In this document: piece by piece, positions 1,400-64,000 of the stretch
Numbering within the stretch: position 1 is the stretch's first letter
Layout of the letters: each line of letters starts with the position of its first letter
Source: Herpetosiphon giganteus
GTDB lineage: Bacteria; Chloroflexota; Chloroflexia; Chloroflexales; Herpetosiphonaceae
Assembly (NCBI RefSeq): GCF_016907925.1
Contig: NZ_JAFBCZ010000017.1
Location: 62,001 to 126,000, forward strand
DNA length: 64,000 bases
Direction of reading: 5' to 3'
Program-made: the position numbers and the translations under genes
The notes under the pieces: model-generated
Databases searched by the model: none
What the model was told of the DNA's origin: nothing
What the model saw: the letters and a program-made list of their open reading frames with translations, nothing else

Positions 1400-1446
1400 T
1401 GCATGTGCTCCTTGCTGATTGATTTGATAGGTTGAGCATAAGCTAG

Positions 1447-1471: not shown

Positions 1472-1484
1472 TGGAGCAAGTACG

Positions 1485-2453: not shown

Positions 2454-2485
2454 GTGAATTGGTCAATTGATGAAAGGAAGAATTG

Positions 2486-5976: not shown

Positions 5977-6073
5977 GCTATTTTTCTGTTTAACGTTTAT
6001 TGAATTTTAATAAAGATAAGTCTGCTGAACAAACAAATTAATCAACAATTTGGTTATTCATGTGAGCCAAAAG

Positions 6074-6259: not shown

Positions 6260-6506
6260 TGAAGCTCCTTCTTCAGCGAGAAACCAGCGGTTTTGGGCTA
6301 CACGGTTGTGAAAATGAACGATTAAACAGCGCTTGATTATAGGTAAGTGACGCGTTCTCCTGTGGTTGTCGACTCTTAACGTAGCAATGCTACTTTCAAC
6401 TATATACTGCATACATCGATAACAAACAACGTTCGAACAGCGAAATCGATAACACAATTCAAACAGCGGCTCGATACACAACAACATTCAAATATAGGGG
6501 GATGTT

Positions 6507-7073
6507 ATGAAAGCCTTACGTGTATTTCCTAAACTGGTCATTGTCGTCGGGATCATCTTTGCCTTAGGTGGCGCAGTGACGATGGGGGCCGGCATCTATA
6601 TCAATAATTTTGTTGGCGATAAACTTGAAGCGCAACAAATCACGACACCTGAAGATGCATCGATTCCAAATGCACCAGTCAACGATATTGCAACCGCCTT
6701 GAGCATGGCCGACATCATTCAACACCACGCTGCTGATAGCTCACAAGGTCTATCGTACGCACAAATGGGTCGTTTCTCGACTCCCGATGGCGCACCAGCT
6801 GGTACCAACAATGCTGAAGAAGCGTTGAAAGACGCGAATGGCAAACCAGTTGCCAACCAAGCTCGCAACACTCAATTGACGGCTGCTGGGCTTGTGACTT
6901 CACTGAGCCTTTCAGCAATGGCGCTTGGCGCTTCGTATGGCGCAATCGCTCTTGGCCTTGGCTTCTTGGTTCTCGGCATCATTATTACTGGCCTTGGTTA
7001 TGCCTTACTAGGCTTGATTACGCCAGAAGTTGCCAAACGCTTCGGCCTGCAACCAGTCGCAGCAACCAAATAA
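6507..7073 (+). CDS. Two-helix membrane protein with extracytoplasmic loop
   Basis: 188 residues. One hydrophobic helix near residues 8-30 (VIVVGIIFALGGAVTMGAG), a polar loop of about 100 residues rich in Ala, Asn and Asp, and a second hydrophobic stretch near residues 125-170. The topology places the loop outside the cell. GGGGGA precedes the ATG. It resembles small membrane proteins that are sometimes misnamed as ring-opening dioxygenase LigA in databases, but no enzymatic motif is visible. Ends 20 bases before a strong shared terminator. Confidence 0.7.
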   Translation: MKALRVFPKLVIVVGIIFALGGAVTMGAGIYINNFVGDKLEAQQITTPEDASIPNAPVNDIATALSMADIIQHHAADSSQGLSYAQMGRFSTPDGAPAGTNNAEEALKDANGKPVANQARNTQLTAAGLVTSLSLSAMALGASYGAIALGLGFLVLGIIITGLGYALLGLITPEVAKRFGLQPVAATK

Positions 7074-7093
7074 CCTTTCATGTTGCAAGCGCA

Positions 7094-7127
7094 AGCCCGC
7101 CAGTCACAACGACTGGCGGGCTTTTTG
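7094..7127. terminator. Bidirectional intrinsic terminator
   Basis: AGCCCGCCAGTC / GACTGGCGGGCT stem of 12 pairs, loop ACAA-type, followed by TTTTT on the plus strand. It separates the convergent membrane protein and flavoprotein genes. Confidence 0.85.
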
Positions 7128-7128
7128 T

Positions 7129-8217
7129 CTAATAGCCTTCGTTCGTAAGCGATTGTTGGTAGGCTTGGCGCACGCTTGGGCTGATGCTGGTTTCACTGGC
7201 TGCAAAGGTTAATTCTTGATCAACCTCCTGATTAAGCGCCGCTTGAGCCGCATATTGTTTGTTTTTGGTGATGTGGCGGGCGACAATTGCCAACAAATTG
7301 GGGGTTGGTAATTCAGCTTGGGCCGCTTGGCTGGCTGCGTCCCAAAGCTTGGCTTGTTGCAAGGCTGGGTTTGCTTGGAGGCTGATGTGTTGCACTTCAA
7401 TCACAAAGGCTGCATGCGGTGGCTTTTCGCCCAAGGCCATGCTTGCACATAGCGCCAGATCATCAGTCAGATAGCCAGTCCCATTGATGTGCAATACTTC
7501 CTCACGGCCTGGAACCAAAAATGCTAGCCCAATCTGGGCCGATTGCAACAGATTGCGCACGGTGTCTGCCCGCTGGTTGCCTTTGCGATCAGCAATCGCC
7601 AGCGTTTGGTCATCAAGCACCCGCACAAATCCTATTCGATCGCCTTTGGGGCTGGTATCGCTGCCGCTGTTGGCATCCCACGATGAAAGCAGCACAAACG
7701 GCGATTGCGCCAAAAATTGGCTAATCAGCGGATCGTTGAGGCTGGTTGCGCTGGGCTGCGTGCTGAAATTACTTGACGTAATCGTTGTGCTTGCATCAAA
7801 AAGTTTTGAGCGCAAAATACACTTGGCACAATGCACAAACGCCTCTTCTACCGCAATTGTTACTTGGCTTGGCGTAATTTCAGCTAGCTGGCCATTGACC
7901 CGCAGCGTTTCGCCGTGGGTTCCGGGCAAAAAGAAGAGCAACGAAACACTGGGATACTGCTCGGAGAGCGCGAGCGTGCTTGGGCGATCAAAGGTTATTT
8001 GGGTTGCTGATTCGGCCCGCACAAAGCCAGCAGTTCCGCCAATAATTGTTGTTTGCGGCTGGCCTGCTGGATCGCGAAAGCCCAAGCCAGCGATGGGCGC
8101 AATCGCCAGAATCGCTTGACAATCATCGTCGAGGCTCGTAACCGTTTTCATCAAAACCAATTCGTTGGGTGAACCAATCAGCGCTTCAACCTCGCTGACA
8201 GTCGTTATCCGGCGCAT
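7129..8217 (-). CDS. Pyridoxamine 5'-phosphate oxidase-like (split barrel) flavoprotein, duplicated
   Basis: 362 residues from the ATG at 8217 (AAGGAA upstream; the longer reading from 8421 has no support). Two split-barrel halves are visible. The first carries FVHCAKCILRSKLF, the Cys/His pattern of FMN-dependent PPOX proteins of the MSMEG_1061 kind; the second contains SPKGDRIGFVRVLDDQTLAI and a RADTVRNLL helix that usually binds FMN phosphate. Likely a flavin- or F420-dependent reductase. Its promoter region is shared with the divergent SRPBCC gene at 8425. Confidence 0.8.
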   Translation of the reverse strand: MRRITTVSEVEALIGSPNELVLMKTVTSLDDDCQAILAIAPIAGLGFRDPAGQPQTTIIGGTAGFVRAESATQITFDRPSTLALSEQYPSVSLLFFLPGTHGETLRVNGQLAEITPSQVTIAVEEAFVHCAKCILRSKLFDASTTITSSNFSTQPSATSLNDPLISQFLAQSPFVLLSSWDANSGSDTSPKGDRIGFVRVLDDQTLAIADRKGNQRADTVRNLLQSAQIGLAFLVPGREEVLHINGTGYLTDDLALCASMALGEKPPHAAFVIEVQHISLQANPALQQAKLWDAASQAAQAELPTPNLLAIVARHITKNKQYAAQAALNQEVDQELTFAASETSISPSVRQAYQQSLTNEGY

Positions 8218-8366
8218 ATGTATTCCTTTATTGATGCAGGTATGGAGGGCAATAGTACACATCATAATCATCGATACTGAGTACGATAAGCGATGTGCAG
8301 CGATTTGGCGAGGACAATAGTCGCCAAATCTAGCGCTCAACACTTGTATTTTACGAACATATGATC

Positions 8367-8413
8367 TCATAATGAACCATCGCGGCATAGAAGTATCGAT
8401 TGGATCATTATGA
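8367..8413. promoter_or_regulatory. Inverted repeat between flavoprotein and SRPBCC gene
   Basis: TCATAATGA at 8367-8375 and its exact reverse complement TCATTATGA at 8405-8413, each nearly palindromic itself, with 29 bases between. The right copy overlaps the ribosome-binding site of the SRPBCC gene. Possible operator; weak evidence. Confidence 0.3.
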
Positions 8414-8424
8414 AGGAGCAACCC

Positions 8425-8922
8425 ATGGGTGAGCTACAGATCAGCCAAAACCCAGATTCAAAAACTGGCATGGTGATTCGTAAACCGATTGAAGTGGTTT
8501 TTGAGGCGCTCATCAACCCTGCAATAACTACTCAATTTTGGTTTACTGCCAGCAGTGGTTGGCTTGAGCAGGGCAAAACGGTTACATGGGAATGGGCTAT
8601 GTATGCGGTTGTGGTTGAAGTAACGCCGCTTGTCGTTGAGCCACCAACCAAACTTGTAATTGAATGGCCCGGCTATGCTGGCTTAACTCAGGTTACTTGG
8701 TCATTGCAACCGCAGGCCAACCAAACAACCTATGTTGAGGTTGCTGAAACCGGCTTTAGCGGAACAGCTGAATCTATTCAGCAACAAGTGGTTGATTCCA
8801 CTGAAGGCTTTTGTTTGGTTCTGGCAGGGCTTAAGGCATGGCTTGAACATGGCATTGCCCTCAACTTGGTTGTTGATCGCTTTCCTGCTGGCTACCATAA
8901 TGCCCATGAGCACAGCAATTAA
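8425..8922 (+). CDS. SRPBCC (AHSA1-like) protein
   Basis: 165 residues from ATG 8425; AAGGAG at 8413-8418 decides this start over an ATG 15 bases upstream. IRKPIEVVFEALINPAITTQFWF is the typical first strand-helix of Aha1/START-like SRPBCC domains, with the conserved W-P-G (VIEWPGY) and a closing helix (GFCLVLAGLKAWLEHG). These hydrophobic-cavity proteins bind small lipophilic ligands or act as co-chaperone-like proteins. Divergent from the split-barrel flavoprotein. Confidence 0.85.
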   Translation: MGELQISQNPDSKTGMVIRKPIEVVFEALINPAITTQFWFTASSGWLEQGKTVTWEWAMYAVVVEVTPLVVEPPTKLVIEWPGYAGLTQVTWSLQPQANQTTYVEVAETGFSGTAESIQQQVVDSTEGFCLVLAGLKAWLEHGIALNLVVDRFPAGYHNAHEHSN

Positions 8923-8939
8923 TCGTCACCTTGCAAAAA

Positions 8940-8976
8940 TTTGCCCCTTGCTTGGAGCGAAAAAGCAAGGGGCAAA
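8940..8976 (-). terminator. Intrinsic terminator of the double-GNAT gene
   Basis: 14-pair stem TTTGCCCCTTGCTT / AAGCAAGGGGCAAA; read on the minus strand it ends in a TTTTT run. It lies just past the stop of the gene at 8986. Confidence 0.75.
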
Positions 8977-8985
8977 GCTGCTGTT

Positions 8986-9867
8986 TTATTGATTGAGCTG
9001 CAAAATGGCAAATGGCTCGCCAAACGGCTGCTCGTCGGTTTCGACAAAGCCTAGTGATTGATACAAGCGGCGGGCGACATCGTTCGCATCTTCATAACTA
9101 ACCGCAACCGAGCTGCCACCTGCGGCGCGAATTGTGGCCAGCATGTGTTGAACTGCCGTGCGTCCGTAGCCCCGACCCTGAAATTTTGCATCAACTAAGA
9201 GCCGCAGCAACCCCCAACCATAGTCTGGATCATTGCCATACATCATGAAGCCAACCAGCGTTTCATCGGCGTAAATGCCATGGGTTTCCCAATGTGGCTC
9301 GAAGCGCGATTGGACCAACGAGGCTGCGGTGCTGGCGACAAACTGCTGCTGATGCGGCGCAACGCTTAATGCCAAACAAGCCCGTGCATTGGCGAGGGTA
9401 ATTGATTGTAACGTAATTGTTGCGCTCGGCATGGGCCGTGGTGGTAGTGCCAACGCCACAGTTACTACTCCCGTTGCATCGCTTTGGGCAATCTGTGCTC
9501 CAAGCGCCGCCCAAAATTGTTGAGCCAGCTGATTGCTGTTTGGATAGGCTGCATGCAACTGCTGAATGCTATAGTTAGCAGCGCGCTCTGCAAGCAAGGC
9601 GGCGATTGTCGCGCGGCCATAGCCCTGTCGTCTCAAACGCGGATCGATGATGAGATCGTATAGCCACCAGCGGCCATCAGCGATCGCTGTGCCTTCGACT
9701 ACCACTCCAACCAGCTGCTGCGTTTCCTGCTCGACGATCGCGCGAATTTGGGCATTTGGAATGATAGCGGCGTTTGCATAGGCTCGGGTGATGGCTGACT
9801 GTTCAGCATCAACGGTAGCTAGCGTATCAACCATGGCTTGGGTGAGTGCTTGGAACTGAATCTGCAT
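8986..9867 (-). CDS. Tandem GNAT acetyltransferase (two domains)
   Basis: 293 residues with two GNAT folds. The first has the acetyl-CoA loop RRQGYGRATIAAL near residue 80; the second has QGRGYGRTAVQHM near residue 232, followed by the helix DVARRLYQSLGFVETDE that ends canonical GNAT domains. Two-domain GNATs include mycothiol synthase and antibiotic or polyamine acetyltransferases; substrate is unknown. AAGGAG precedes the ATG. A hairpin-plus-U-tract lies between the promoter and this ribosome site, so transcription is probably attenuated (see the leader feature). Confidence 0.85.
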   Translation of the reverse strand: MQIQFQALTQAMVDTLATVDAEQSAITRAYANAAIIPNAQIRAIVEQETQQLVGVVVEGTAIADGRWWLYDLIIDPRLRRQGYGRATIAALLAERAANYSIQQLHAAYPNSNQLAQQFWAALGAQIAQSDATGVVTVALALPPRPMPSATITLQSITLANARACLALSVAPHQQQFVASTAASLVQSRFEPHWETHGIYADETLVGFMMYGNDPDYGWGLLRLLVDAKFQGRGYGRTAVQHMLATIRAAGGSSVAVSYEDANDVARRLYQSLGFVETDEQPFGEPFAILQLNQ

Positions 9868-9894
9868 TGCAACTACTCCTTTGCCCGATCCAAC

Positions 9895-9945
9895 AAAAAG
9901 GGGACGGCATCAACAGACCTGTCGGTCTATGTGATGGCCGTCCCC
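9895..9945 (-). promoter_or_regulatory. Leader terminator (attenuator) upstream of double-GNAT gene
   Basis: On the minus strand, GGGGACGGC (9945-9937) pairs with GCCGTCCCC (9908-9900); inside are an ATCAC/GTTGAT arm with one bulge and an AGACC-GACA-GGTCT hairpin. A TTTTTG run follows directly at 9899-9895, then the ribosome site and start 28 bases later. A terminator placed between promoter and gene is the hallmark of attenuation. It is not a recognisable T-box and I cannot name a riboswitch class. Confidence 0.65.
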
Positions 9946-9979
9946 AAAATTTGGTGGTCGGAATTCAATTAGTGAGCAC

Positions 9980-10009
9980 ATGTTACACCGAGCAAAACTT
10001 TTGTGTCAA
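9980..10009 (-). promoter_or_regulatory. Sigma-70-type promoter of the double-GNAT leader
   Basis: On the minus strand: TTGACA (10009-10004), 18-base spacer, TAACAT (9985-9980). Transcription would begin near 9973 and read through the leader hairpin. Confidence 0.65.
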
Positions 10010-10130
10010 GCACAGTAAGATGCGTTAGAATGCAGACGCTTACAGTTAGCACTCCACGCAGCATAGGCAAATTGTGCAGCGTGGGCTTTAGATTGTATCC
10101 CGTAATGGTATGCGATACAGGAAGGCTTTT

Positions 10131-10790
10131 ATGCTTCGTCGTTTTGTTGTCGTCGGCTTGAGTTTGCTTGCTGGATTATTGCTGATTCAGCAGGTGCTTG
10201 CTGATCAATCCAGTCCAAATCTAGCCCCAGCAATGGTTAGCCTTGCTGGTGGAAGCCTAACACCTACGCTTGCACTGACTCCCACTGCAACGCTCACGCC
10301 CACCACAATTCCAACTGCCGCGCCGATCAGCCTTGATAACTATCTGCCAATCGTGGTCAAAGCGCCGCCAACGCCAACCGCTACGCCAACGCCCATCCCA
10401 ACCGCTACACGAATTCCAACTGCAACGCCGATTCCCCCAACCGCAATTCCGCCAACGCCGACGTTGGGCACGGTCAACCCAAGTTGTGATGGCGCGGCCA
10501 GTTCTTCCCCTCCGAACTATCCCGTTGCGATTACGAATGTTAATAAGGCTGGCAATCCAGAAACCGTGACGATTCGCAATATCTCGAACCAACCTGTCGA
10601 CATAAACAACTGGTGGATTTGTTCAATGACTGGCAATCAGCGTCATGCAATTCTGAGTGGCACGTTGGCTCCAGGCCAAACTTTGGTCGTTGTTTCGCAG
10701 GCCAACGGGCCGATTTGGAATAACACTGCGACCGATCCAGCGGCTCTTTATCGCCGCGATGGCTTTCAAGTGGGCTATCGTAGCCAATAG
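10131..10790 (+). CDS. Secreted lamin-tail-domain (LTD) surface protein
   Basis: 219 residues from ATG 10131, chosen because AGGAAGG lies 5 bases before it. Signal peptide at residues 1-26 (MLRRFVVVGLSLLAGLLLIQ, then a VLA-type cleavage site). Residues ~45-110 are a Thr-Pro-Ala linker interrupted by DNYLPIVVK. The C-terminal ~100 residues form a lamin-tail domain: PVAITNVNKAGNPETVTIRN and the NNWWI...L.PGQTLVV strands typical of bacterial LTDs. Such proteins are exported and probably cell-surface bound; ligand unknown. Confidence 0.82.
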   Translation: MLRRFVVVGLSLLAGLLLIQQVLADQSSPNLAPAMVSLAGGSLTPTLALTPTATLTPTTIPTAAPISLDNYLPIVVKAPPTPTATPTPIPTATRIPTATPIPPTAIPPTPTLGTVNPSCDGAASSSPPNYPVAITNVNKAGNPETVTIRNISNQPVDINNWWICSMTGNQRHAILSGTLAPGQTLVVVSQANGPIWNNTATDPAALYRRDGFQVGYRSQ

Positions 10791-10881
10791 CCATATACAA
10801 ACCTGTGGTTGGTATGCTTTATGCTGGAAAATGTGAAACGTTGATTGTGCTCGTTGTTGATTCAACGAAAGGAGTAACCTG

Positions 10882-11370
10882 ATGGCAACTATTGCCCACA
10901 AAATCGTTCCGCATCTTTGGTTTGATACCCAAGCGGTCGAGGCAGCAAACTTCTATTGTTCAATCTTCCCCGATTCGCAGATTACCAGCAATACCACTTT
11001 GCCCGATGCGCCATCAGGTGATGCAACCACGGTTGCGTTTACCCTTATGGGCCAGCCGTTTATGGCAATTAGCGCTGGCCCGTTATTCAAATTCAACGAG
11101 TCGATCTCATTCATGGTGTATTGCGATGACCAAGCTGAAGTCGATTATTACTGGGAGAAACTTTCAGCAGTGCCCGAAGCTGAGCAATGTGGCTGGCTGA
11201 AAGATCGCTATGGGCTTTCATGGCAAATTGTTCCCAAAGCGATGAATACGATGCTCGAAACTGCTGATCCAGCTCAAATTGCGCGGGTTACTCAAGCCAT
11301 GCTCGCCATGAAGAAATTGGATCTGGCGGCACTGCAACAGGCTTATGCTGGCGAACAAGGCCACGCTTAA
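10882..11370 (+). CDS. PhnB-like VOC protein
   Basis: 162 residues. IVPHLWFDTQAVEAANFYCS, the later ISFMVYCDDQAEVDYYWEKL and the CGWLKDRYGLSWQIVP closing segment are diagnostic of the PhnB / '3-demethylubiquinone-9 3-methyltransferase' subgroup of VOC proteins. Substrate unknown; the methyltransferase name is historic and should not be taken literally. GAAAGGAG precedes the ATG. Its TAA and the stop of the convergent LysR gene share the same TTAA. Confidence 0.88.
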   Translation: MATIAHKIVPHLWFDTQAVEAANFYCSIFPDSQITSNTTLPDAPSGDATTVAFTLMGQPFMAISAGPLFKFNESISFMVYCDDQAEVDYYWEKLSAVPEAEQCGWLKDRYGLSWQIVPKAMNTMLETADPAQIARVTQAMLAMKKLDLAALQQAYAGEQGHA

Positions 11371-12263
11371 GCCTCACGCAGGTGCGCAGTCGCAGTTTGC
11401 ACAAGCTCGCTAAAGGCTTGGGTTGCATGACAGCGGTAGACATCGCGCTGCCAGAGTAAGCCAACTTTGCGGGCTGGGATTGGGTTGATTAAGCGAATGC
11501 GCGCTAAATTCGCTGTTGGCCGATCATTCAAGCTCAAGGCTGGCAAAACGGTTGGCAATCCTGTGCGTTCAACCACCGCCAAAATACTGCTCACCGTGTT
11601 GAGTTCCATCACGATCTGGGGCTGGGCTGGAGCCAAGCGCGCGCTTTCTTCCCACAGGCGGCGGGTACAAAAGCTCTTGGCTAGCAGCACCAATTCCATC
11701 GCATCAAGTGTGCTAACTGTCACTTCCTGCTGGCTGGCAAGCGGATGATCGTTGCGCACAATCAGCGCTAAGCGTTCCTCGAATAACGCTTGGCTGGCCA
11801 AAAGTTCGTGCGAACTTGGCACAAAACTTAAACCAAGCTGCAACTCACCTGCGACCAAACGTTGTTCAATTGTGTCTGCTGGTGCTTCCTCGATCAACAA
11901 TTTAATTCGAGGGTGGCGGTTTGCAAAGCTAGCGGCAAGCGCTGGAATCAAATAATCGTTGACTGTTTGCACAACGCCAATCGTTAATTCGCCCCGTTGC
12001 AAGCCTGCCAGCTCGCGAATTGCCGTTTCTGCTTGCTGCAACTCGCCAAAAATTCGCTCTGCATGCTGATATAAAATGCTGCCTGCTGCGGTCAGGCTCA
12101 CGCCACGTTTCGAGCGATTGATCAGCACAGTGCCAACAGTTTGCTCTAAAACCTGAATTTGCTGCGATAACGCTGATTGCGAAATGAACAGCGTTTCGGC
12201 GGCCCGCGTAAAGTTGGCAGCCTGCACAACCGCTACCAAATAGCGCAGTTGACGTAATTCCAT
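11367..12263 (-). CDS. LysR-family transcriptional regulator
   Basis: 298 residues. N-terminal winged HTH MELRQLRYLVAVVQAANFTR ... SQSALSQQIQVLE is a textbook LysR reading; the rest is the two-lobed periplasmic-binding-like effector domain. Start set at the third of three consecutive possible starts, giving GAGGTGA a workable spacing. Divergent from the protoglobin gene at 12382 with a GATA-type inverted repeat between, so the protoglobin is the likely target. Overlaps the convergent VOC gene by 4 bases at the stop codons. Confidence 0.9.
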   Translation of the reverse strand: MELRQLRYLVAVVQAANFTRAAETLFISQSALSQQIQVLEQTVGTVLINRSKRGVSLTAAGSILYQHAERIFGELQQAETAIRELAGLQRGELTIGVVQTVNDYLIPALAASFANRHPRIKLLIEEAPADTIEQRLVAGELQLGLSFVPSSHELLASQALFEERLALIVRNDHPLASQQEVTVSTLDAMELVLLAKSFCTRRLWEESARLAPAQPQIVMELNTVSSILAVVERTGLPTVLPALSLNDRPTANLARIRLINPIPARKVGLLWQRDVYRCHATQAFSELVQTATAHLREA

Positions 12264-12274
12264 CATCACCTCAG

Positions 12275-12299
12275 CTTATCAAAAAGATAAGATCTATCT
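12275..12299. promoter_or_regulatory. Candidate LysR operator before protoglobin gene
   Basis: Two overlapping inverted repeats: CTTATC-N5-GATAAG (12275-12291) and AGATA-N5-TATCT (12285-12299). The position, immediately upstream of the LysR start and facing the divergent gene, fits a LysR site. Confidence 0.5.
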
Positions 12300-12381
12300 G
12301 TTAGACTAATTATAGCAGGCGGGCTAGAATCGTGGTGTTGAATGTTCGCGCCATTGAATGGCGTTGTTTCTGGAGAACCAT

Positions 12382-12978
12382 ATGTCTTCGACAGCATCGA
12401 TTCCTGGCTATACTTATGGCAGTGCAGAGGTGGCCGAATCGCCATTTCGCCTAGACGATCTTGCCATCCTCAAACAGACACTGCTTTTTACTGAAGCTGA
12501 TGTGGCGTATTTGCGCATGGCTGGCACTGTGCTCGAACCGCAAGTTGAGGCGATTTTGGATGTTTGGTATGGGTTTGTGGGCGCGCATCCGCATTTGGTC
12601 GCCTATTTTTCAACCACTCAGGGCGCGGTTCTCCCCGATTATTTGGCGCGGGTTCGTGCCCGCTTTGCCCAATGGATTCGCGATACAACCCAGCGCGAGT
12701 ATGATCAGACCTGGCTTAACTATCAAATGGAAATTGGCTTGCGCCACCATACTGAGAAGAAAAATCATACCGATGCTGCTGCTGGAGCGCCAACGATTAT
12801 CCCGTTGCGCTATATGGTTGGCTTTATCGTGCCAATTACGATCACGATCAAAGAATTTCTCAAAGCTGGCGGCCATAGCCCAGCAGAAGTTGAACAGATG
12901 TATGCTGCTTGGTTTAAGGCGGTAGTTTTGCACGTTACGCTGTGGCTCCAACCCTATGCCCTGCCAGGCGAATTTTAA
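12382..12978 (+). CDS. Protoglobin-domain haem protein
   Basis: 198 residues from ATG 12382 (TGGAGA upstream). The segment EIGLRHHTEKKNHTD holds the proximal His region of the protoglobin family, preceded by the conserved WLNYQM, and the protein has the right length and N-terminal extension (IPGYTYGSAEVAESPF) for a stand-alone protoglobin. Protoglobins bind O2, CO and NO at haem and are related to the sensor domain of globin-coupled sensors. No output domain is attached here. Role in gas sensing or NO detoxification is inference, as is control by the divergent LysR. Confidence 0.88.
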   Translation: MSSTASIPGYTYGSAEVAESPFRLDDLAILKQTLLFTEADVAYLRMAGTVLEPQVEAILDVWYGFVGAHPHLVAYFSTTQGAVLPDYLARVRARFAQWIRDTTQREYDQTWLNYQMEIGLRHHTEKKNHTDAAAGAPTIIPLRYMVGFIVPITITIKEFLKAGGHSPAEVEQMYAAWFKAVVLHVTLWLQPYALPGEF

Positions 12979-13094
12979 TTCTCTCATGCGCAGATCTCTC
13001 GCACTTCAAGGGTAGATTTTAGTATCGTTGTGCGTGCCGAACCAGCAATCTCGTAGTTCAGCAGTGCATGGCTACCACATCCCAATTATCCTTG

Positions 13095-13160
13095 AGGGGG
13101 TGCAGGGGGATTAAAGCCCCCTGCGTCTCCCGCTTGGAGGCGGGACGGAAGGGTGGTGAT
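13095..13160. repeat. Dispersed repeat family A, copy 1
   Basis: 66 bases containing AGGGGGT, a GGGGATTAAAGCCCCC palindrome and a CCCGC(t/c)TGAGGCGGG-type palindrome, ending in AAGGGTGGTGAT. The reverse complement occurs at 36018-36083 with the same length and few differences. Intergenic in both places. Confidence 0.8.
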
Positions 13161-13198
13161 TACGGATAATGGTTAATAAACTACTCTTGTAAAAGTCC

Positions 13199-13230
13199 TC
13201 TTTCCCACTGAAACGCGGGCGAGGAGGATC
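13199..13230. repeat. Dispersed repeat family B, partial copy
   Basis: Contains CCCACTGAAACGCGGGCG, which matches (with one base inserted) the reverse complement of part of the element at 53700-53820. Lies 40 bases after the family A copy. Confidence 0.65.
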
Positions 13231-13237
13231 GTAAATC

Positions 13238-13684
13238 CTACCCTTGTGCGCTTTGGGTCAGAGAATCGCCTTTCAAGGCTTGCCGCAACCACCAGTGTAA
13301 TCCCAGCATCAGCCCAATTTCAGCAATTAATGCCCTTAGCAATTCGCTGCTGAACAATATGGTGAAATTATTGGCGCTGAAGCGCAATAACCCACCGACA
13401 ATAAAGGCGCTGAATATCGCTTGCAGCAGTAAGCGATATTTGGCTAAATCGCGTACTGCTAGCAGAATGCACACCCCTAAAGTGCCAAAAACCCCAGCCA
13501 AAAATCGAAAATGGCTATCTTGCACGCCATAGCGCAGATTATTTGCGTCGGCAACTTGCGGTGGCGCACCCTGCCAACCAAGCGTTTCAAACCCGCCTAG
13601 CCCAAAATCGAGGCTGATATACAAACTATACAAACCCACCAAAACCAACACGATCTTGAGGCCCATCAAACTTGCTCGTTGCAT
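13238..13684 (-). CDS. DUF4345 family membrane protein
   Basis: 148 residues with four hydrophobic helices. NNLRYGVQDSHFRFLAGVFG after the first helix is the conserved signature of DUF4345 proteins, whose function is unknown. No partner gene is obvious. The 3' end abuts the repeat-rich intergenic region at 13095-13230. Confidence 0.8.
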   Translation of the reverse strand: MQRASLMGLKIVLVLVGLYSLYISLDFGLGGFETLGWQGAPPQVADANNLRYGVQDSHFRFLAGVFGTLGVCILLAVRDLAKYRLLLQAIFSAFIVGGLLRFSANNFTILFSSELLRALIAEIGLMLGLHWWLRQALKGDSLTQSAQG

Positions 13685-13793
13685 ACATTTACTCCCATTT
13701 CAAGTAATAGATGCATAATACAAGTTGCCGTAGGGTTAACTGCAAGCCTTGGTAACAATTATTCATTTTTGTTCAGGTTTGCGCTATTGAATA

Positions 13794-14546
13794 TTAGTTG
13801 CTGAGACTGCTAAGCGACAGGCGTTTTTTGCTCAGTTGATAGCTCTGCTTGCCAACGATCAGCTGTTGATCGCCAAATGTAAAGCGCCAGCGTTGGCTGA
13901 ATTGGTTTGGTTGGGCAAACCAAACAGTGTGTTGCTGTGGTTCAAAGACTAGGCTCAGTTGGGTTGGAAAATCGCCTGCGGTTTGTTGGGTTGCAGCCAA
14001 AATAGCAAAGGCTTGATCAACGTCTGGCTGCTGTTGATTCAATAATTGCTGACAGCTCAAGTAGCGATCGGCGCTTGGTTGTTGGCTCAAGCTGGCTACT
14101 GGCGTGCTATGCAACGAAAAATTGGTCTGAATTAGACTCTGCTCGTGTTGAACCAGCCCAATCTGGCCTGGCTCTAAAATGCCAAGCTGGCCATGCTCAT
14201 CGCGCAGTAAGCTATGCACACTATGATTCGGCACATTGACAATCTGTTGGTTTTGTAGCGCAGCAAAATCAATGGCTCCGGCCAGAAATTGCTTAAAAAC
14301 CTTCATCATGTGCATGACATTGTTGTTGCGCCGATAGGCTCCGGCAGCTGTGGCAGGCAGCATTTGCAGGTTCATAAAGCGGCCATTGTTGGTGAGGCCA
14401 ATTGCTGGCAACCATTGGCCCTGCTCCGATTGTAAAATCAATAATTGGGCTGGATTGGGCATACTCAAGGCGATTGGGCGTGGCCCAATATCAAAATTCA
14501 TCGCCACCAAGTCTTGGGCTTGGTTAATTGCAAAACTGGTACACAT
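13794..14546 (-). CDS. Choloylglycine-hydrolase-like Ntn amidohydrolase
   Basis: 250 residues starting MCTSFAI. Cys2 would be the N-terminal nucleophile exposed after Met removal, as in penicillin V acylase and bile salt hydrolase family proteins; a following MNFDIGP resembles the conserved D-x-G region, and LLRDEHGQLGILE with the later QTNFSLHS corresponds to the Asn-containing strands. Likely hydrolyses a linear amide, perhaps an acyl-homoserine lactone or peptide; substrate unknown. No signal peptide, so cytoplasmic. Confidence 0.75.
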   Translation of the reverse strand: MCTSFAINQAQDLVAMNFDIGPRPIALSMPNPAQLLILQSEQGQWLPAIGLTNNGRFMNLQMLPATAAGAYRRNNNVMHMMKVFKQFLAGAIDFAALQNQQIVNVPNHSVHSLLRDEHGQLGILEPGQIGLVQHEQSLIQTNFSLHSTPVASLSQQPSADRYLSCQQLLNQQQPDVDQAFAILAATQQTAGDFPTQLSLVFEPQQHTVWFAQPNQFSQRWRFTFGDQQLIVGKQSYQLSKKRLSLSSLSN

Positions 14547-14678
14547 ACATCCTCTGCGGGTAAATAATTAAGCATGGTATATCCCATAAGAATTGCAATG
14601 CCAATCCTGCTTTGGCCCGATCCATAGTCTTGCTACTCCTTCTATAGTCGAATTCTAGTAATTAAGTGAGGTTTTTCC

Positions 14679-15158
14679 ATGGATGGAGAATGGTTCCCAC
14701 AAGAGTACTATGCAGCACTTGACAGCGATGCTGCGATAATTCAACCGACCCTGCGCGAGCTTTTAGCGCCAGCTACGCCTGCAAGCAAAGGGTTGCACGA
14801 GCTGATCGTGGCGCGCGATCTGGCTGCAAGCCTAATTCAAGGCTGTGCTGAATTGGGCATTGCAACCTATGCCCTTTCGTGGTGGTGTCATGTTACGCCA
14901 ACCAATCGGGCGCTTTATGGCTGCCCTCATGGTTTTGGTGGCCCGCCAACCAATGAGGGCCGCTTCAGCGAATGTGGCCAGTACCCCGATTACGAGATTA
15001 TTGCGCCACTAGCTGGGTGGCCAGCTTCTCCGCAAGCGATCGCCCAGCTTTGTGCTGCGCAATTGCAACGCTCTCTTACCCAAAAACTGCCACTCGAACC
15101 GTTTTTTCGGCCTTGTTTAGCGATTGGGCTATGCTTAGCTATACCAGAAACATGGTAA
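14679..15158 (+). CDS. Hypothetical protein
   Basis: 159 residues, not recognised. Mostly helical N-terminal half, then a Cys/Gly/Pro-rich middle (CHVTPTNRALYGCPHGFGG) with paired cysteines that could bind metal. GTGAGG lies before the ATG. Convergent with the hypothetical gene at 15168, nine bases apart. Confidence 0.55.
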   Translation: MDGEWFPQEYYAALDSDAAIIQPTLRELLAPATPASKGLHELIVARDLAASLIQGCAELGIATYALSWWCHVTPTNRALYGCPHGFGGPPTNEGRFSECGQYPDYEIIAPLAGWPASPQAIAQLCAAQLQRSLTQKLPLEPFFRPCLAIGLCLAIPETW

Positions 15159-15167
15159 CGATCAAGC

Positions 15168-15641
15168 TTAATCCCATAAGCCTTTTTGACCAAAATCCAC
15201 TAAAATTGCTTTAAGTTGAGCATGCTGAAGCTGGAGATAAACCTGTTCAGAGGTCTTGATTGCCTGAGTTTGTGCGCTAACATCAAGGATTGGGCCAAAC
15301 GTTATGCGAACAATGCGGCGGTTTCGGTTGGTTTCAAATAGAATCGGCGTTGCCACAAAGCGCTCTGCTGCTGGCGGAATCACCCATTGCACTGCTCCAG
15401 GCGTAGCTGAATCGGGTATTGTAAGCTGATCGTTTAAGCGCGGCTTGGCTAGCAGATCAATATTGATGATCCAGCCCTGAGCGTCCAAATCGATGATGAC
15501 ATAGTTATCGAAATTGATGCTAGAGGCCCACGCGCGGGCTAGCGGGTTTGAAATTGACATAATTTTTACTGAACGATCATAGCTGGCAAATAGTTCGCCA
15601 TTGCTGTTTGCTGTGCTGATTTTTGCCACATTAAGCCCCAT
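15168..15641 (-). CDS. Hypothetical protein, mixed alpha/beta
   Basis: 157 residues, AAGGAG upstream. Alternating hydrophobic strands (DNYVIIDLDAQGWIINIDLL, then RRIVRITFGPIL) suggest a beta-rich fold; the C-terminal segment is helical. DUF2283-like features were considered but not convincing. No function proposed. Confidence 0.55.
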   Translation of the reverse strand: MGLNVAKISTANSNGELFASYDRSVKIMSISNPLARAWASSINFDNYVIIDLDAQGWIINIDLLAKPRLNDQLTIPDSATPGAVQWVIPPAAERFVATPILFETNRNRRIVRITFGPILDVSAQTQAIKTSEQVYLQLQHAQLKAILVDFGQKGLWD

Positions 15642-15706
15642 CGTCGCTGCTCCTTGTGCTCACACCTAATCTTCATTCGCACATTATAGCGCTTGAGAAT
15701 GTATGC

Positions 15707-15758
15707 TTGACATTACATTGAGTATGCTATAAATTACATTGTGTAACGTATACATTAC
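15707..15758 (+). promoter_or_regulatory. Promoter with multi-site operator for membrane protein/Xre operon
   Basis: TTGACA at 15707-15712 and TATAAA at 15728-15733 (15-base spacer). ATTACATTG occurs twice, at 15712-15720 and 15733-15741, exactly 21 bases (two helical turns) apart; both touch the promoter boxes. A 16-base near-palindrome GTAACGTATACATTAC follows at 15743-15758. This arrangement fits repression by the operon's own Xre protein. Confidence 0.6.
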
Positions 15759-15788
15759 AAAACGATTATTTAATTTAAGGATGTAGTG

Positions 15789-16271
15789 ATGAGCTTTCAC
15801 GAAAAAAGTGCTTGGGCAAGTTTGCTGGCAATTGGCGTGGTTTTTACCCCATACCTGGTGATTGTCTTGCGTCAGCCGTTGGCGTTTGGCATCTTGGTGG
15901 TGGCGGTCATCGCCTTAGTGGTGATTTTGACAGCCTTTCACGTGATCAACGCTATCAGCAGCAAATTGATTCGTGAGCGTGGCGTTACGCCACCAATCGA
16001 TGAACTTGATCGCATGATTGAGTTGCGCGCAGCAAAATATGCAGGCTTTGTGCTGGCATGCGCGGTGCTGACGTGGTGTTTATTCGCGATGGTTTCTATG
16101 ATGGCGTGGGGTGTGAGCGCTGGTGGCGAGCCAAGCAATTTGGCTGAATTTCGCGTACCTATAACTCAGGCTTTAACCGCTATCCATTGGCTATTTGCTA
16201 GTTTTGTGCTGGCCAATTGCGTCTATTATGCCAGCATTGTGGTGGGGTATCGGAAACTCGCTCATGGATAA
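15789..16271 (+). CDS. Four-helix membrane protein of the DUF2178 type
   Basis: 160 residues from ATG 15789 (a GTG 3 bases before is possible; AAGGA upstream). Four hydrophobic segments with a charged loop ([20 protein letters not shown]) between the second and third. Small four-helix proteins of this sort are often encoded next to an Xre repressor, and here the next gene overlaps by 8 bases. Role unknown; possibly the sensor or target of the regulator. Confidence 0.65.
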
Positions 16272-16476
16272 ACTCTTGATTCACAATCGGATTCGCCAAC
16301 TGCGCTTTGAAGCAGACGAAATGACTCAGCAGGCGCTGGCCGATCATGTTGGCATCACCCGCCAAACCGTGATTGCGCTCGAACAAGGCAAATATTATCC
16401 TTCGCTTGAATTGGCTTTTCGGATTGCGCTGCTTTTTGCTAAGCCACTTGAGCAAGTGTTTCAGGTCGACGTTTAA
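16264..16476 (+). CDS. Xre-family HTH regulator, YozG-like
   Basis: 70 residues from ATG 16264, overlapping the membrane gene. [20 protein letters not shown] followed by [20 protein letters not shown] is a clear short Xre HTH, ending in [11 protein letters not shown], exactly the pattern of the small regulators paired with membrane proteins. Presumed autorepressor acting at 15707-15758. Confidence 0.88.
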
Positions 16477-16479
16477 TGA

Positions 16480-16515
16480 TTGACGGCGGCAACTCTTGTT
16501 GGTTGCCGCCGTCAA
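16480..16515. terminator. Hairpin after the Xre gene
   Basis: Perfect 14-pair stem TTGACGGCGGCAAC / GTTGCCGCCGTCAA, 8-base loop, no strong U-tract on either strand. Probably ends the operon or protects its 3' end; convergent with the gene at 16569. Confidence 0.6.
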
Positions 16516-16568
16516 CTTGCGAAGCCAGCGAAAATCGTTTGATTCAAAACGACTATGAGCAGCAGGTG

Positions 16569-17453
16569 CTAATGCGCGCTGGCTTGCAATGCTTCTGCGA
16601 AGATGCTTGAGAGGCATGCTTTGAGTCCGGTGGGTTTTCGGCCAAGCAGCGTTTCTAAGCTCGCTGAAACTTGATCTTCTTGACCAAACTTAATATCAGT
16701 CATAAACCCAATGATCCGTTGAATGACTTGATCATCCAGACCGCGCTGCTTCAAGTTTGCGGCAAATGCCGACCCTTCAATTGGCGTATAGGCAATTGCT
16801 TGCCCCATCAGTTCGGAGAGATACTCCGCGACATCAGCAAATGACCACGTTTCGGCTCCAGTAAGTGCATAGATCTGGCTCTCATTACTTATCTGAACCA
16901 GTGCATTGGCCATCGCCTCTCCTTGTTCACTGCGCAGCGCAAACGCAACCCTACCAGCGCCCGCAGGGAGCATAATACCGCGCTCAAAGCCGCGTGCTCC
17001 GCCAATAAATTGCGGAATTGCATCCATATACAAGCTATTGCGAAAGATCGTATAGCTCAGGCCGCTGGATTTAATCGCTTCTTCGGTCTGAAAATGCTCG
17101 TGCATCAGCGTATTGGCGAGGGTCGCAGGATTGCGTAAGTTTCTGCTGGTATAGGCAATTCGTTTGACTCCAGCTTTTTTTGCTGCATCGATGACATTTT
17201 GGTGTTGTTGAACCCGTTTGCCTTCTTCCGTTCCCGAAATTAGCAGCACGGTATCAATAGCTTGCATCGCTCGATCAAGCGAATCGCGATCATCATAGCT
17301 GCCAATGCGAAGATCGACCCCTTGGGCTTGAAGCTGGCTCGCTTTAGCGGGATTTCGCACCAAAGCGGCTATTTGGCTGCTGGGTAGTTGGCGTAAAAGG
17401 GTCGTGATGACTGTTGTCGCGATCTGTCCGCTTGCACCTGTTACCAAAATCAT
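16569..17453 (-). CDS. NmrA-type NAD(P)-binding oxidoreductase (QorB-like)
   Basis: 294 residues. ILVTGASGQIATTVITTLL is an NmrA/atypical SDR Rossmann start; VKRIAYTSRNLRNP and the segment FRNSLYMDAIP match quinone-reductase QorB and related proteins that bind NADPH. Divergent from a TetR gene with shared operators, so induction by a quinone or other electrophile is a reasonable inference. Confidence 0.87.
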   Translation of the reverse strand: MILVTGASGQIATTVITTLLRQLPSSQIAALVRNPAKASQLQAQGVDLRIGSYDDRDSLDRAMQAIDTVLLISGTEEGKRVQQHQNVIDAAKKAGVKRIAYTSRNLRNPATLANTLMHEHFQTEEAIKSSGLSYTIFRNSLYMDAIPQFIGGARGFERGIMLPAGAGRVAFALRSEQGEAMANALVQISNESQIYALTGAETWSFADVAEYLSELMGQAIAYTPIEGSAFAANLKQRGLDDQVIQRIIGFMTDIKFGQEDQVSASLETLLGRKPTGLKACLSSIFAEALQASAH

Positions 17454-17474
17454 AGCTTCTCCGATTCAAATAAT

Positions 17475-17510
17475 GTTATCGATGATAACTATATCATGGT
17501 ATCAATGATA
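17475..17510. promoter_or_regulatory. Paired TATC-N3-GATA operators between NmrA and TetR genes
   Basis: GTTATCGATGATAAC (17475-17489, perfect arms) and TATCAATGATA (17500-17510), centres 23 bases apart; further TATC half-sites continue toward the TetR start. Tandem palindromes in a divergent TetR promoter are the classic arrangement for a TetR repressor. Confidence 0.65.
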
Positions 17511-17550
17511 ATTCAATCGCTGTTATCACTTTTATGCTATCATTGCTATC

Positions 17551-18276
17551 ATGGAAAATGCTGAAATTACCCATAATTTAAATTCACATGATCGCATTGT
17601 CCGCGTTACGGCTCATTTGCTGGCCAATGGCGGCCTTGAAAGCGTATCAACCCGGGCTGTCGCCGAAGCCGCCGGAGTTCAAGTGCCAATCATCTATCGG
17701 CTTTTTGGTGATATGCGTGGGTTGCTGAACGCCGTTGTCAGTCATGGTTTTGAGGTCTATCTTGAGAGCAAACGCGAACGGCTAGCGCAGCATGATCCGG
17801 TTGAGGAAATTCGTCATGGCTGGGATATGCATGTAGAGTTTGGGTTGCTCAACCCTGCCTTGTATCGCCTGATGTATGGCGAGCCACAGCCAAGCAAAGA
17901 GGTTCCGGCGGCAATCAAGGCTTTCGCTATCTTGCGCGAACGAGTAACCCAGATTGCTGCCACAGGGCGTTTGCTGGTTGATGTTGAGTCAGCGGCTCAG
18001 ATGCTGCACGCTGCCTGTCGGGGAGTGACATTTAGTTTGCTTGAAAGCGATTCGGCCAAACGCGACCTCGCGCTTTCGAATCGGGTTCGCGAAGCCATCT
18101 TAACCGCGATCACGCGAACTGTGGAACCCACCCTCGCTGAACAGCCGAATCAGCTAAGCCATATGATTAGCATGGCGGTGGCGCTCAAGGCTCTGCTGCC
18201 AAATGCCCACATGTTGACTTCAGGCGAGCGTGCGTTACTAACCGAGTGGCTTGATCGGCTTAGCATGAGCCGTTGA
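17551..18276 (+). CDS. TetR-family repressor
   Basis: 241 residues. HDRIVRVTAHLLANGGLESV then STRAVAEAAGVQVPIIYRLF is a standard TetR HTH (residues ~12-55). The helical C-terminal part is the ligand-binding/dimer domain (WHG-type). Divergent from the NmrA oxidoreductase, 97 bases of operator-rich DNA between them. No good ribosome site is visible before the ATG; the leader is probably very short. Confidence 0.9.
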   Translation: MENAEITHNLNSHDRIVRVTAHLLANGGLESVSTRAVAEAAGVQVPIIYRLFGDMRGLLNAVVSHGFEVYLESKRERLAQHDPVEEIRHGWDMHVEFGLLNPALYRLMYGEPQPSKEVPAAIKAFAILRERVTQIAATGRLLVDVESAAQMLHAACRGVTFSLLESDSAKRDLALSNRVREAILTAITRTVEPTLAEQPNQLSHMISMAVALKALLPNAHMLTSGERALLTEWLDRLSMSR

Positions 18277-18317
18277 TGCCTCTAAACTTTGGGTTGCGCA
18301 TCAGTTAATTAAATGGA

Positions 18318-18370
18318 CATTCCCCGAACAATGTCAATCCAGAGAGCTGGCTTACTAGGTTCGGGGAATG
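18318..18370. other. Nested hairpin between convergent genes
   Basis: Perfect 12-base inverted repeat CATTCCCCGAAC / GTTCGGGGAATG, 29-base loop that itself contains CCAG-AGAG-CTGG. No U-tract follows on either strand, so this is an atypical terminator or an RNA-processing/protection element. Confidence 0.5.
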
Positions 18371-18392
18371 CATCATATTTAACCACAAATTG

Positions 18393-20048
18393 TTAGGCCA
18401 ACGCTTCGGCTGCTGCGCGGCCAGCGGTGCGGCCAGAAAAAATACAGCCACCAAGGAAGGTGCCTTCGAGCGAACGATAGCCGTGCATGCCGCCGCCGCC
18501 AAAGCCCGCCACCTCGCCAGCAGCATACAAACCGCTGATCGGCTGGCCATCTTGGCCAATCACCCGCGCCGAAAGATCGGTTTGCAGCCCACCCAAGCTT
18601 TTGCGGGTGAGAATATTCAAGCGCACTGCAATCAATGGCCCTGCGCTGCGATCGAGAATTTGGTGCGGTTTCGCAACCCGAATCAATTTATCACCAAGAT
18701 AGTTGCGTGCTCCACGCAAGGCGGTAATTTGCATATCTTTGGTAAATGGATTGCTCATTTCGCGGTCGCGGGCCTGAATTTCGCGCTCAATTGCTGCGGG
18801 ATCAAGCAAGGGTTCTGGGGTGAGCGCATTCATGCCCTTGATCAAATCGGCCAAATTATCGCGTACAACAAAATCGGCTCCATGACGCTTGAAGGCCTCA
18901 ACTGGCGGGGTTGCCCCGGGCAGAACCCGCCCTAACACTTGGCGCACGCTTTTGTTGGTCAAATCGGGGTTTTGCTCCGAGCCAGAGAGTGCAAATTCTT
19001 TTTCGATAATTTTCTGGGTCAGAATAAACCAACTATAATCGTAGCCGGTATGCATCAGATGTTTGAGCGTGCCAAGGCTATCGAAGCCAGGAAAGAGCGG
19101 CACTGGCAATCGCTGGCCAAGCGCATCGAACCACAACGACGATGGCCCAGGCAAAATTCGGATGCCATGGTTGGTCCAAATTGGCTTCCAATTTTGCAAG
19201 CCTTCGGTGTAGTGCCACATGCGGTCGGGGTTGATAATTGTGCCGCCAGCAGCCTCAGTAATTGCCAACATCCGACCATCAACATAATCGGGAACCCCTG
19301 CAACCATGGTTTTTGGGGCTTGGCCAAGCCGTTCGGGCCAATTTTTGCGCACTAAATCGTGGTTTGCGCCGATGCCGCCAGAGGTCACAATCACCGCTTG
19401 CGCCTGCAATGTGAAGCTGCCAACGACCTTGCGCGAGCTTGGCACGCCGCGCGCTAGGCTGCTTGGCTCCAAAATATCGCCATCGATGCCAGCAACAGCC
19501 CCGCCATTCAGTAACAATTGATTAACGCGATGGCGAAATTTGAGCGTAATCAGCCCTTTTTGGGCTGCTGCGCGCACACGGCGCTCAAATGGCGCAACTA
19601 CGCCCGGGCCAGTGCCCCAAGTAATATGAAAGCGCGGCACAGAATTGCCATGGCCAATTGCGCCATAGCCGCCCCGCTCAGCCCAGCCAACCACCGGAAA
19701 AAAGCGCATGCCCTGATCATAGAGCCATTGGCGTTTTTCGCCAGCAGCAAAAGCCAAATAGGCTTCGGCCCATTTGCGCGGCCAATAATCCTCAGTCCGA
19801 TCAAATGCGGCAGTTCCAAGCCAATCTTGCAAGGCTAATTCATAGGAATCTTTGATTTTGAGGCGACGTTGTTCTGGGGAATCGACTAAAAATAAACCAC
19901 CAAACGACCAAAATGCTTGACCACCAAGATTCTGCTCCGACTCTTGGTCGACCAAGATGACCTTTTTGCCGGCATCGGCCAACTCGGCGGCGGCGACTAG
20001 TCCGGCCAAACCTGCTCCAACAATGACCACATCGGCATCATAGTGCAT
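18393..20048 (-). CDS. FAD-binding dehydrogenase (KsdD/fumarate-reductase type)
   Basis: 551 residues from ATG 20048 (GGAGC 6 bases before). N-terminal VVIVGAGLAGLVAAAELA is the FAD dinucleotide-binding motif, followed by ILVDQESEQNLGGQAFWS. The C-terminal GLYAAGEVAGFGGGGMHGYR and the following GTFLGGCIFSGRTAGRAA are the conserved end of the 'predicted oxidoreductase' COG3573 subgroup of the succinate dehydrogenase/ketosteroid dehydrogenase family. Substrate unknown; steroid specificity cannot be assumed. No signal peptide. Confidence 0.9.
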   Translation of the reverse strand: MHYDADVVIVGAGLAGLVAAAELADAGKKVILVDQESEQNLGGQAFWSFGGLFLVDSPEQRRLKIKDSYELALQDWLGTAAFDRTEDYWPRKWAEAYLAFAAGEKRQWLYDQGMRFFPVVGWAERGGYGAIGHGNSVPRFHITWGTGPGVVAPFERRVRAAAQKGLITLKFRHRVNQLLLNGGAVAGIDGDILEPSSLARGVPSSRKVVGSFTLQAQAVIVTSGGIGANHDLVRKNWPERLGQAPKTMVAGVPDYVDGRMLAITEAAGGTIINPDRMWHYTEGLQNWKPIWTNHGIRILPGPSSLWFDALGQRLPVPLFPGFDSLGTLKHLMHTGYDYSWFILTQKIIEKEFALSGSEQNPDLTNKSVRQVLGRVLPGATPPVEAFKRHGADFVVRDNLADLIKGMNALTPEPLLDPAAIEREIQARDREMSNPFTKDMQITALRGARNYLGDKLIRVAKPHQILDRSAGPLIAVRLNILTRKSLGGLQTDLSARVIGQDGQPISGLYAAGEVAGFGGGGMHGYRSLEGTFLGGCIFSGRTAGRAAAEALA

Positions 20049-61943: not shown

Positions 61944-62005
61944 ACAAATGCTGCCTGCTATTTTTTGGTATACTATTTCAGAACCGATTTGCTGGAGATT
62001 GTGGT

Positions 62006-64000
62006 ATGCATGCAACCATTCCTGAACAAGGCCAGGTCGTCCAGGTACGTCAGCGCCGCTATGTGGTCACGACCATTCAACAACGCCTGCTGCCGCAAAC
62101 AATGCTTACCACGCCAATCCCCCAACAGCATGTTGTAACCTTACAAGCTTTAGAAGAAGATGCGCTTGGCGAAGAATTGCAAGTCGTTTGGGAGCTTGAA
62201 GTTGGGGCAACGGTCGTTAATCAACGAGCCTTGCCTGCCCCCGATGGCTTTGATGCCCCTCAACGCTTTGATACATTTTTGGATGCTGTGCGCTGGGGAA
62301 CCGTCGCCAGTGCCAATACCCGCGCGCTCCAAGCTCCGTTTCGCAGCGGGATTGCGATCGAAGATTATCAGCTTGATCCCGTGGTGCGCGCCATTCAAAT
62401 GCCACGCGCCAATCTGTTGATCGCCGATGATGTTGGCTTGGGCAAAACAGTTGAAACTGGCTTGGTCATTCAAGAGTTGATGGTGCGCCAGCGGGTGCGA
62501 ACAGTGCTGATTGTTTGTCCATCGGCGTTGCAGATTCAATGGCGCGATCAAATGCGCGAGAAATTTGGCTTGGCCTTTCGGATTGTCGATAGCACGTTAA
62601 TGCGCAGCCTGCGCCGTGAACGTGGCTTGCACGTCAACCCATGGAGCCATTATCCGCTGCTGATTACCTCGATCGATTTTCTTAAGCGCGATCGCCCTAT
62701 GCGCTTGATGCGCGAAACCTTGCCAGCAGATGATGCGCCGCGCTATCCCCGCCGCTTTGATTTGCTGGTGATCGACGAGGTGCATAATGTCGCACCTTCT
62801 GGGCGCGGTCAATATGCAGTCGATTCGCTGCGAACGCTGGCTATTCGCCAGATTGCCCCGCATTTTGAGCATCGTTTGTTTCTCTCGGCCACGCCGCACA
62901 ATGGCTATGCAGAAAGCTTTAGTGCGCTCTTGGAGTTATTGGATAATCAACGCTTTGCTCGGGGTGTTGTGCCTGATCGCCAGCAATTACAAACAATTAT
63001 GGTGCGGCGGCTCAAATCGGATATTACCAATTGGGATGGTTCGCCGCGCTTTCCGCAACGCTTGGTTTTGCCGCTCGAAGTGCAGTATCGCGCTGATGAA
63101 CGAGCGGCGCATCGGCTGTTGGCCGCCTATAGCCGTGAACGCTTGCAAAACGCCCGCGATGCCAGCGAACGGGTTGCCAGCGAATTTGTGTTGAAGCTGC
63201 TTAAAAAACGGCTGTTTTCGTCGCCCGAAGCCTTTGCCTTGACCTTAGAACAACACGAACGCACGCTCAACCAGCCTAAAAAAGTGGCCAACCAACGCGC
63301 ACCATCGCTGAGTGTCTTGCGCCAGCATCTGGCCAATATCGACGACGAGGAGCTGGAGGATGAAACCGCAGAGAGCGATGATGGCCTCGACGTTGCCGCG
63401 ACATTTTTCGCACCCTTAACCGCAACCGAGCGCGATTACCTTCAGCAGTTGCGCCAATGGGCCGAGCAAGCCCGTTCGCGTAGCGATAGTCGGCTCGATT
63501 TGCTGATCGCATGGTTGCAAAAAGAGCTGTTGGTCGATGGCCGTTGGAACGATCAGCGGGTCGTGATTTTTACTGAATATCGAGCTACCCAACGCTGGTT
63601 GATGCAAATGCTCGCAACCCATGGCTTTGGCCAAAAGGATCGGATTGCCATGCTCTATGGCGGGATGGTTGCCGACCAACGTGAACGGATCAAAGCTGCC
63701 TTTCAGGCCGACCCTGCGCTGGCTCCAGTGCGGATTTTGCTGGCCACCGATGCCGCCTCGGAAGGCATCGATTTGCAAAAATATTGCTCGCACTTGATTC
63801 ATATGGAAATTCCATGGAATCCAAGTCGTTTGGAGCAACGCAATGGGCGGATTGATCGCCACGGCCAGCATGCCAAAGCGGTGCATATTTACCACTTTGT
63901 CAGCCAAGGCTGGCAGGGCCAAGATGCAGCAATGCTTGGCTCGCTCGAAGCCGATTTGGAATTTTTGTTTCGGGCCGCCCAAAAGGTCAATACCATTCGC
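62006..64000 (+). CDS. drmD: DISARM system SNF2-like helicase DrmD, N-terminal 665 codons (runs off the window)
   Basis: Open from ATG 62006 (GGAG 9 bases before) to the edge. GQVVQVRQRRYVVTTIQQ opens it, as in DrmD. Helicase motifs: Walker A DDVGLGKT (Lys147), DEVH (257-260), SATPHNG, the C-terminal core with FTEYRATQRW, ATDAASEGIDLQ and QRNGRIDRHGQ. The spacing and wording match the SNF2-like helicase of class 1 DISARM, an anti-phage defence system usually ordered drmD-drmMI-drmA-drmB-drmC. The partner genes would follow beyond 64000. An upstream -10 TATACT (61969-61974) marks the likely promoter. Confidence 0.88.
   Translation, partial: MHATIPEQGQVVQVRQRRYVVTTIQQRLLPQTMLTTPIPQQHVVTLQALEEDALGEELQVVWELEVGATVVNQRALPAPDGFDAPQRFDTFLDAVRWGTVASANTRALQAPFRSGIAIEDYQLDPVVRAIQMPRANLLIADDVGLGKTVETGLVIQELMVRQRVRTVLIVCPSALQIQWRDQMREKFGLAFRIVDSTLMRSLRRERGLHVNPWSHYPLLITSIDFLKRDRPMRLMRETLPADDAPRYPRRFDLLVIDEVHNVAPSGRGQYAVDSLRTLAIRQIAPHFEHRLFLSATPHNGYAESFSALLELLDNQRFARGVVPDRQQLQTIMVRRLKSDITNWDGSPRFPQRLVLPLEVQYRADERAAHRLLAAYSRERLQNARDASERVASEFVLKLLKKRLFSSPEAFALTLEQHERTLNQPKKVANQRAPSLSVLRQHLANIDDEELEDETAESDDGLDVAATFFAPLTATERDYLQQLRQWAEQARSRSDSRLDLLIAWLQKELLVDGRWNDQRVVIFTEYRATQRWLMQMLATHGFGQKDRIAMLYGGMVADQRERIKAAFQADPALAPVRILLATDAASEGIDLQKYCSHLIHMEIPWNPSRLEQRNGRIDRHGQHAKAVHIYHFVSQGWQGQDAAMLGSLEADLEFLFRAAQKVNTIR

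Follow-up and report, generated by a model that had tools for sequence, protein, structure and literature searches.

Herpetosiphon giganteus carries a probably complete class 1 DISARM operon with additional, defence-like genes between drmMI and drmA

Class 1 (type I) DISARM is said to go back to the work of Ofir et al. in 2018. The reference system for this class is that of Serratia sp. SCBI, whose DrmA protein has a trigger loop formed by residues 176-232 (PMC9142583), and an EVE-like domain has been placed in the N-terminal part of DrmA (PMC12458937). In ARMADA type II, a DUF1998 domain is fused to a helicase, and the system additionally includes ArmD, a RelE-UvrD helicase described as GajB-like with a RelE-like domain (PMC12458937). 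Class 1 DISARM is already known, and the locus presented here adds another example with the standard gene content. The parts of this analysis that could surprise a specialist are only the cargo slot found within the operon and a subtype of the system characterized by an ArmD-like helicase.

What we define here as the window is the whole stretch of DNA analysed, 64,000 nucleotides long (G000:C17:62001-126000), which belongs to the H. giganteus genome (G000; 6.16 Mb in 85 contigs). A reading frame on the forward strand stays open from position 62006 of the window through its end (62006..64000; 665 aa) and corresponds, according to the open frame and the family-model scores, to codons 1-665 of the 1038 of drmD. 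The gene closes 1.1 kb beyond the window (L003:2007-5123, with the stop at G000:C17:127122), giving a 1038-aa protein. In profile searches, the window part already reaches 1010 bits with the PADLOC DrmD model PDLC02621 and 966 bits with NCBIfam NF038317 (DISARM_DrmD, cut-off 610), and the full-length protein reaches 1314 bits with the latter. The SNF2 motifs are intact, with GLGKT at 144, DEVH at 257, SATP at 294, and RNGRIDR at 612.

The contig extends only 1375 bases past the window and ends 253 bp after drmD, inside a 94-bp dispersed repeat (G000:C17:127282-127375) with further copies located at, or close to, the ends of contigs C62, C59, C44, C6, C61, and C7, as is typical of an assembly broken at a repeat. 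These six contigs were considered as the continuation of drmD, and gene calls on the stretches concerned gave no DISARM-like gene. On C44, a transposase-like frame lies about 0.6 kb from the repeat copy, and a similar transposase is found upstream of drmD in a congener (G004). A search for DUF1998 in the same genome gave matches on C29 and C1. In G004, the genes from drmD through drmC are contiguous on a single contig (C30), where drmMI begins 43 bp after drmD; in the alignment to this region, the end of C17 corresponds to 5240-8403 and the start of C29 to 8433 onward. Given that the operon is contiguous in G004, and that the sequences flanking it in H. giganteus lie on one contig in both G005 and G003, C29 very probably follows C17 in the chromosome, after a copy of the repeat that was not assembled.

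The remaining core genes are located on C29 (coordinates as in L058/L049). drmMI (403-4503) scores 1776 bits with the PADLOC DrmMI model PDLC02643; drmA (12512-15958), 1375 bits with the DrmAS model NF038325 (cut-off 950); drmB (15955-17811), 667 bits with NF038324 (cut-off 240), with a match to PF09369; and drmC (17815-18618), 189 bits with NF038319 (cut-off 133), with a PLDc_2 domain. DrmMI presents a SAM motif and the NPPF motif, DrmA presents GGGKT, DELH, and RVGR, and DrmC presents the HKD motif. Class membership was judged by the PADLOC type I definition, which stands for DISARM class 1 (PMC9252829), and all five components that it requires are present, namely drmD, drmMI, drmA, drmB as a separate gene, and drmC. 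No DrmE match was found among the eight intercalated proteins scanned. The original prediction, made from the window alone, took the helicase at the edge for DrmD and for the start of a class 1 DISARM locus, and it is borne out by the full-length score and by the genes downstream: drmMI, drmA, drmB, and drmC, which it had proposed to look for, all follow in this same order on the continuing contig, and the extra genes that it suspected there appear as several frames between drmMI and drmA. We are therefore confident that a complete class 1 DISARM system has its left end here. It would have reached the chromosome in one piece of approximately 22 kb, together with cargo that most likely consists of independent modules.

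The gene order drmD, drmMI, drmA, drmB, drmC is the one of the Serratia class 1 system, and almost the entire sequences of DrmA and DrmB can be aligned to the solved Serratia complex 7s9v (DrmA to 7s9v_A with 1041 bits, DrmB to 7s9v_B). Contrary to Serratia DrmA, the protein from H. giganteus is devoid of the first ~125 residues, the alignment starting at Serratia residue 136, and it has a shorter trigger loop; to judge from the alignment, the missing part should be the EVE-like domain. Since both the N-terminus and the trigger loop are affected, recognition or auto-inhibition may differ from those of the Serratia system. The H. giganteus operon also differs from the Serratia one in the seven or eight extra frames between drmMI and drmA, and in that no cytosine methylase was seen in it. 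With ARMADA type II, the locus shares a RapA/BrxH-like helicase, a PglX-like methylase, and a YprA-like helicase; however, its drmB is a gene of its own, it includes a drmC, it lacks ArmD, and no UvrD match was found among the intercalated proteins scanned, which places it outside ARMADA type II. By analogy with the described systems, DrmMI would methylate the host DNA at adenines, as its motifs, the family definitions, and the Serratia system suggest (PMC9142583). The DrmA-DrmB complex would load onto DNA that comes in unmethylated and bears a 5' overhang, and would then translocate, with DrmD, a RapA/BrxH-like SNF2 ATPase, as a possible accessory factor helping in recognition or remodelling. 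The PLD protein DrmC may cut, and is probably dispensable.

The left boundary of the island lies at 61955..61961 of the window, as determined by blastn of the junction: G005 aligns, with its empty site, up to 61955, and G004 aligns, with its DISARM unit, from 61961 onward. The island thus starts ~50 bp upstream of drmD and ends 17 bp past the stop of drmC, the right flank being C29 from 18636; that is, the island is the operon itself. The earlier placement of the boundary just before drmD was right to within a few bases, and the description of the upstream genes as lacking a link to defence agrees with their reading frames. A putative extended -10 promoter of drmD is read at the very edge of the island (TGG-TATACT at 61966..61974 on the forward strand, with TATACT at 61969), where TTTTTTGGTATACTA, followed by GAACCGATTTGCTGGAGATTGTGGTATG, is kept in the congener G004. 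The left flank (the window up to 61955) and the right flank are only 556 bp apart in G005, which represents the empty site, and 22.6 kb apart in G003. The edges, located to a few bases, and the empty site of this close relative together define how far the unit extends. G004 bears the same unit at a different chromosomal place, and its sequence beyond drmC is unrelated. No integrase was seen within the unit. The 22.6-kb block of G003 (G003:C3:109132-131771; L060/L061) occupies the same insertion point with other content; to judge from the reading frames, these look like ordinary genes, among them one for a sugar ABC transporter. To the right of the island in H. giganteus, a frame for a 4082-aa NRPS-like protein starts after 2.8 kb (G000:C29:21386-33634; L063:4387-16635).

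The region between drmMI and drmA encodes, in this order on C29, a 216-aa protein (u216; 4520-5170); a barstar-like protein of 199 aa (5193-5792); a CBS-DUF7662-DUF4268 protein (CBS591; 5868-7622); on the reverse strand, a Toprim protein of the RloB/AbiLii type (7670-8269; 112 bits to AbiLii and 169 bits to Pfam RloB) and an AAA_21/AbiLi ATPase (8262-9560; 335 bits to AbiLi); a 202-aa protein (u202; 9736-10344); a PD-(D/E)XK nuclease (PDDEXK4, with the domain PDDEXK_4 and the PADLOC family PDC-S26; 10378-11580); and a zinc-type frame that is probably broken (zn248; 11732-12478). Neither u216 nor u202 matches any Pfam or PADLOC family, and each has just two close sequences. The ATPase and the Toprim protein are paired as in AbiL (AbiLi/AbiLii; RloA/RloB-like), with the P-loop of the former and the Toprim-type acidic motifs of the latter present, and differ from known AbiL in lying within a DISARM operon and running opposite to it; for AbiLi, no solved relative was found by sequence.

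The assignment to DISARM has to be weighed against two other readings of drmD. That it serves a different defence system with a similar SNF2 helicase, such as Dpd, BREX, or ARMADA, is suggested by its matches to the DpdE, RapA, and BrxH families, but these are far weaker than those to the DrmD models (180 vs 1314 bits), and drmB is here a separate gene, which is a trait of DISARM (PMC12458937). In addition, the neighbouring drmA, drmB, and drmC on the continuing contig refute this possibility unless the join between C17 and C29 is wrong, and we consider it hardly credible. It is also very unlikely that drmD is a decayed remnant next to a contig break and a repeat, with the remainder of the system unlinked or broken. 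Such a reading takes its support from the contig stopping so shortly after the gene in a repeat shared with other contig ends, and is countered by the frames of all core genes, which are open, by the start of C29, whose counterpart in G004 comes 43 bp after drmD, and by the two flanks sharing one contig in both G005 and G003.

For a complete DISARM system, it must further be asked whether the cargo forms part of it, as effectors triggered by the sensing of DrmAB or DrmD in an extended, composite DISARM. Nucleases of the PD-(D/E)XK and Toprim types could plausibly act as effectors, and most cargo genes keep their order and orientation between H. giganteus and G004, with 64-91% identity, despite the different chromosomal places of the unit; this conservation across two species might reflect a common function. 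However, the slot is empty in some class 1 loci (9/43, with a gap of 350 bp or less), and the cargo of H. giganteus has no match in the 54 other loci of the DrmMI scan described below, save for one of 21 residues in AbiLi. There is also cargo turnover, since HNH320 is found in G004 only and zn248, probably frame-broken in H. giganteus, is cut down to its 3' end in G004; CBS591 shows 64% identity between the two, vs 74-90% for the core genes. Moreover, the AbiL pair is inverted relative to the operon and would therefore need its own promoter. Finally, homologues of two cargo genes stand alone elsewhere, that of PDDEXK4 (75% identity) in G005, where neither a full-length DrmD nor a DrmMI was found, and that of CBS591 (32%) in G304. 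A composite system is thus unlikely. Since homologues of these two genes exist without DISARM, the cargo is most likely a set of independent defence modules that landed in the operon, rather than subunits of the DISARM machine. Since the operon has to work with its two halves separated, drmABC may have a promoter of its own.

The occupation of the different junctions was compared across class 1 loci, 54 from a genome-wide DrmMI scan and 20 from a search of the phylum, four of which were dropped, mostly as near-duplicates. Counting a slot as occupied when neighbouring core genes are separated by more than 350 bp of extra sequence, this is the case for drmMI-drmA in 34/43 loci, for drmD-drmMI in 23/59, for drmA-drmB in 3/39, and for drmB-drmC in 0/18. 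The bias of drmMI-drmA with respect to the pooled drmA-drmB and drmB-drmC junctions (3/57) gives a Fisher value of 5e-15, kinship being ignored beyond the four dropped loci. The content of the slot varies from locus to locus and often consists of defence genes, including GmrSD-type type IV enzymes, OLD/PtuA/GajA-type ATPases, SoFic, TIR, PIN, and macro proteins, a HamB-like helicase, and AbiJ. A 665-aa GmrSD-like protein, 70-90% identical, is found in the slot of L072, L074, L081, and L086, which come from Pseudomonas, Acidobacteriota, and Chloroflexota.

A UvrD helicase of ~700-830 aa with an N-terminal ParE/RelE-like region is present in 12 class 1 loci (L070, L079, L094, L097, L118-L123, L126, and L136), plus a weaker 13th (L132), and sits between drmMI and drmA wherever both genes are seen. 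By its description alone, this helicase fits ArmD of ARMADA type II. DrmA is long (1266-1509 aa) in all ten of the ArmD-like loci compared, vs 5/31 of the others. DrmC was found in none of the five ArmD-like loci with at least 1 kb of sequence after drmB, vs 16/22 of the others (p=0.006, with kinship ignored). The combination of an ArmD-like helicase, a long DrmA, and no DrmC points to a subtype of DISARM that would form a bridge to ARMADA. With moderate confidence, we propose that the drmMI-drmA junction is a preferred docking slot where unrelated defence modules are exchanged, that this one subtype is permanently equipped with the ArmD-like helicase and links DISARM to ARMADA, and that H. 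giganteus represents a multi-module example. A multi-gene defence operon would itself offer, at one of its junctions, a place where other defence genes land, and this pattern could guide the search for uncharacterised ones through guilt by association. We met no description of the slot or of the ArmD-like subtype in the literature searched, the founding DISARM paper lying outside that search.

The DUF1998 match on C1 belongs to a second DISARM-like locus of the same genome (G000:C1:243000-262999; L050:1548-11719), in which no drmC was called. It encodes a protein with a DrmE_C domain (528 aa), a NERD helicase, a C5 cytosine methylase on the opposite strand or otherwise divergent, DrmA (698 bits), and DrmB (263 bits). 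This locus looks like a class 2 DISARM system, in which case the genome of H. giganteus would carry both classes.
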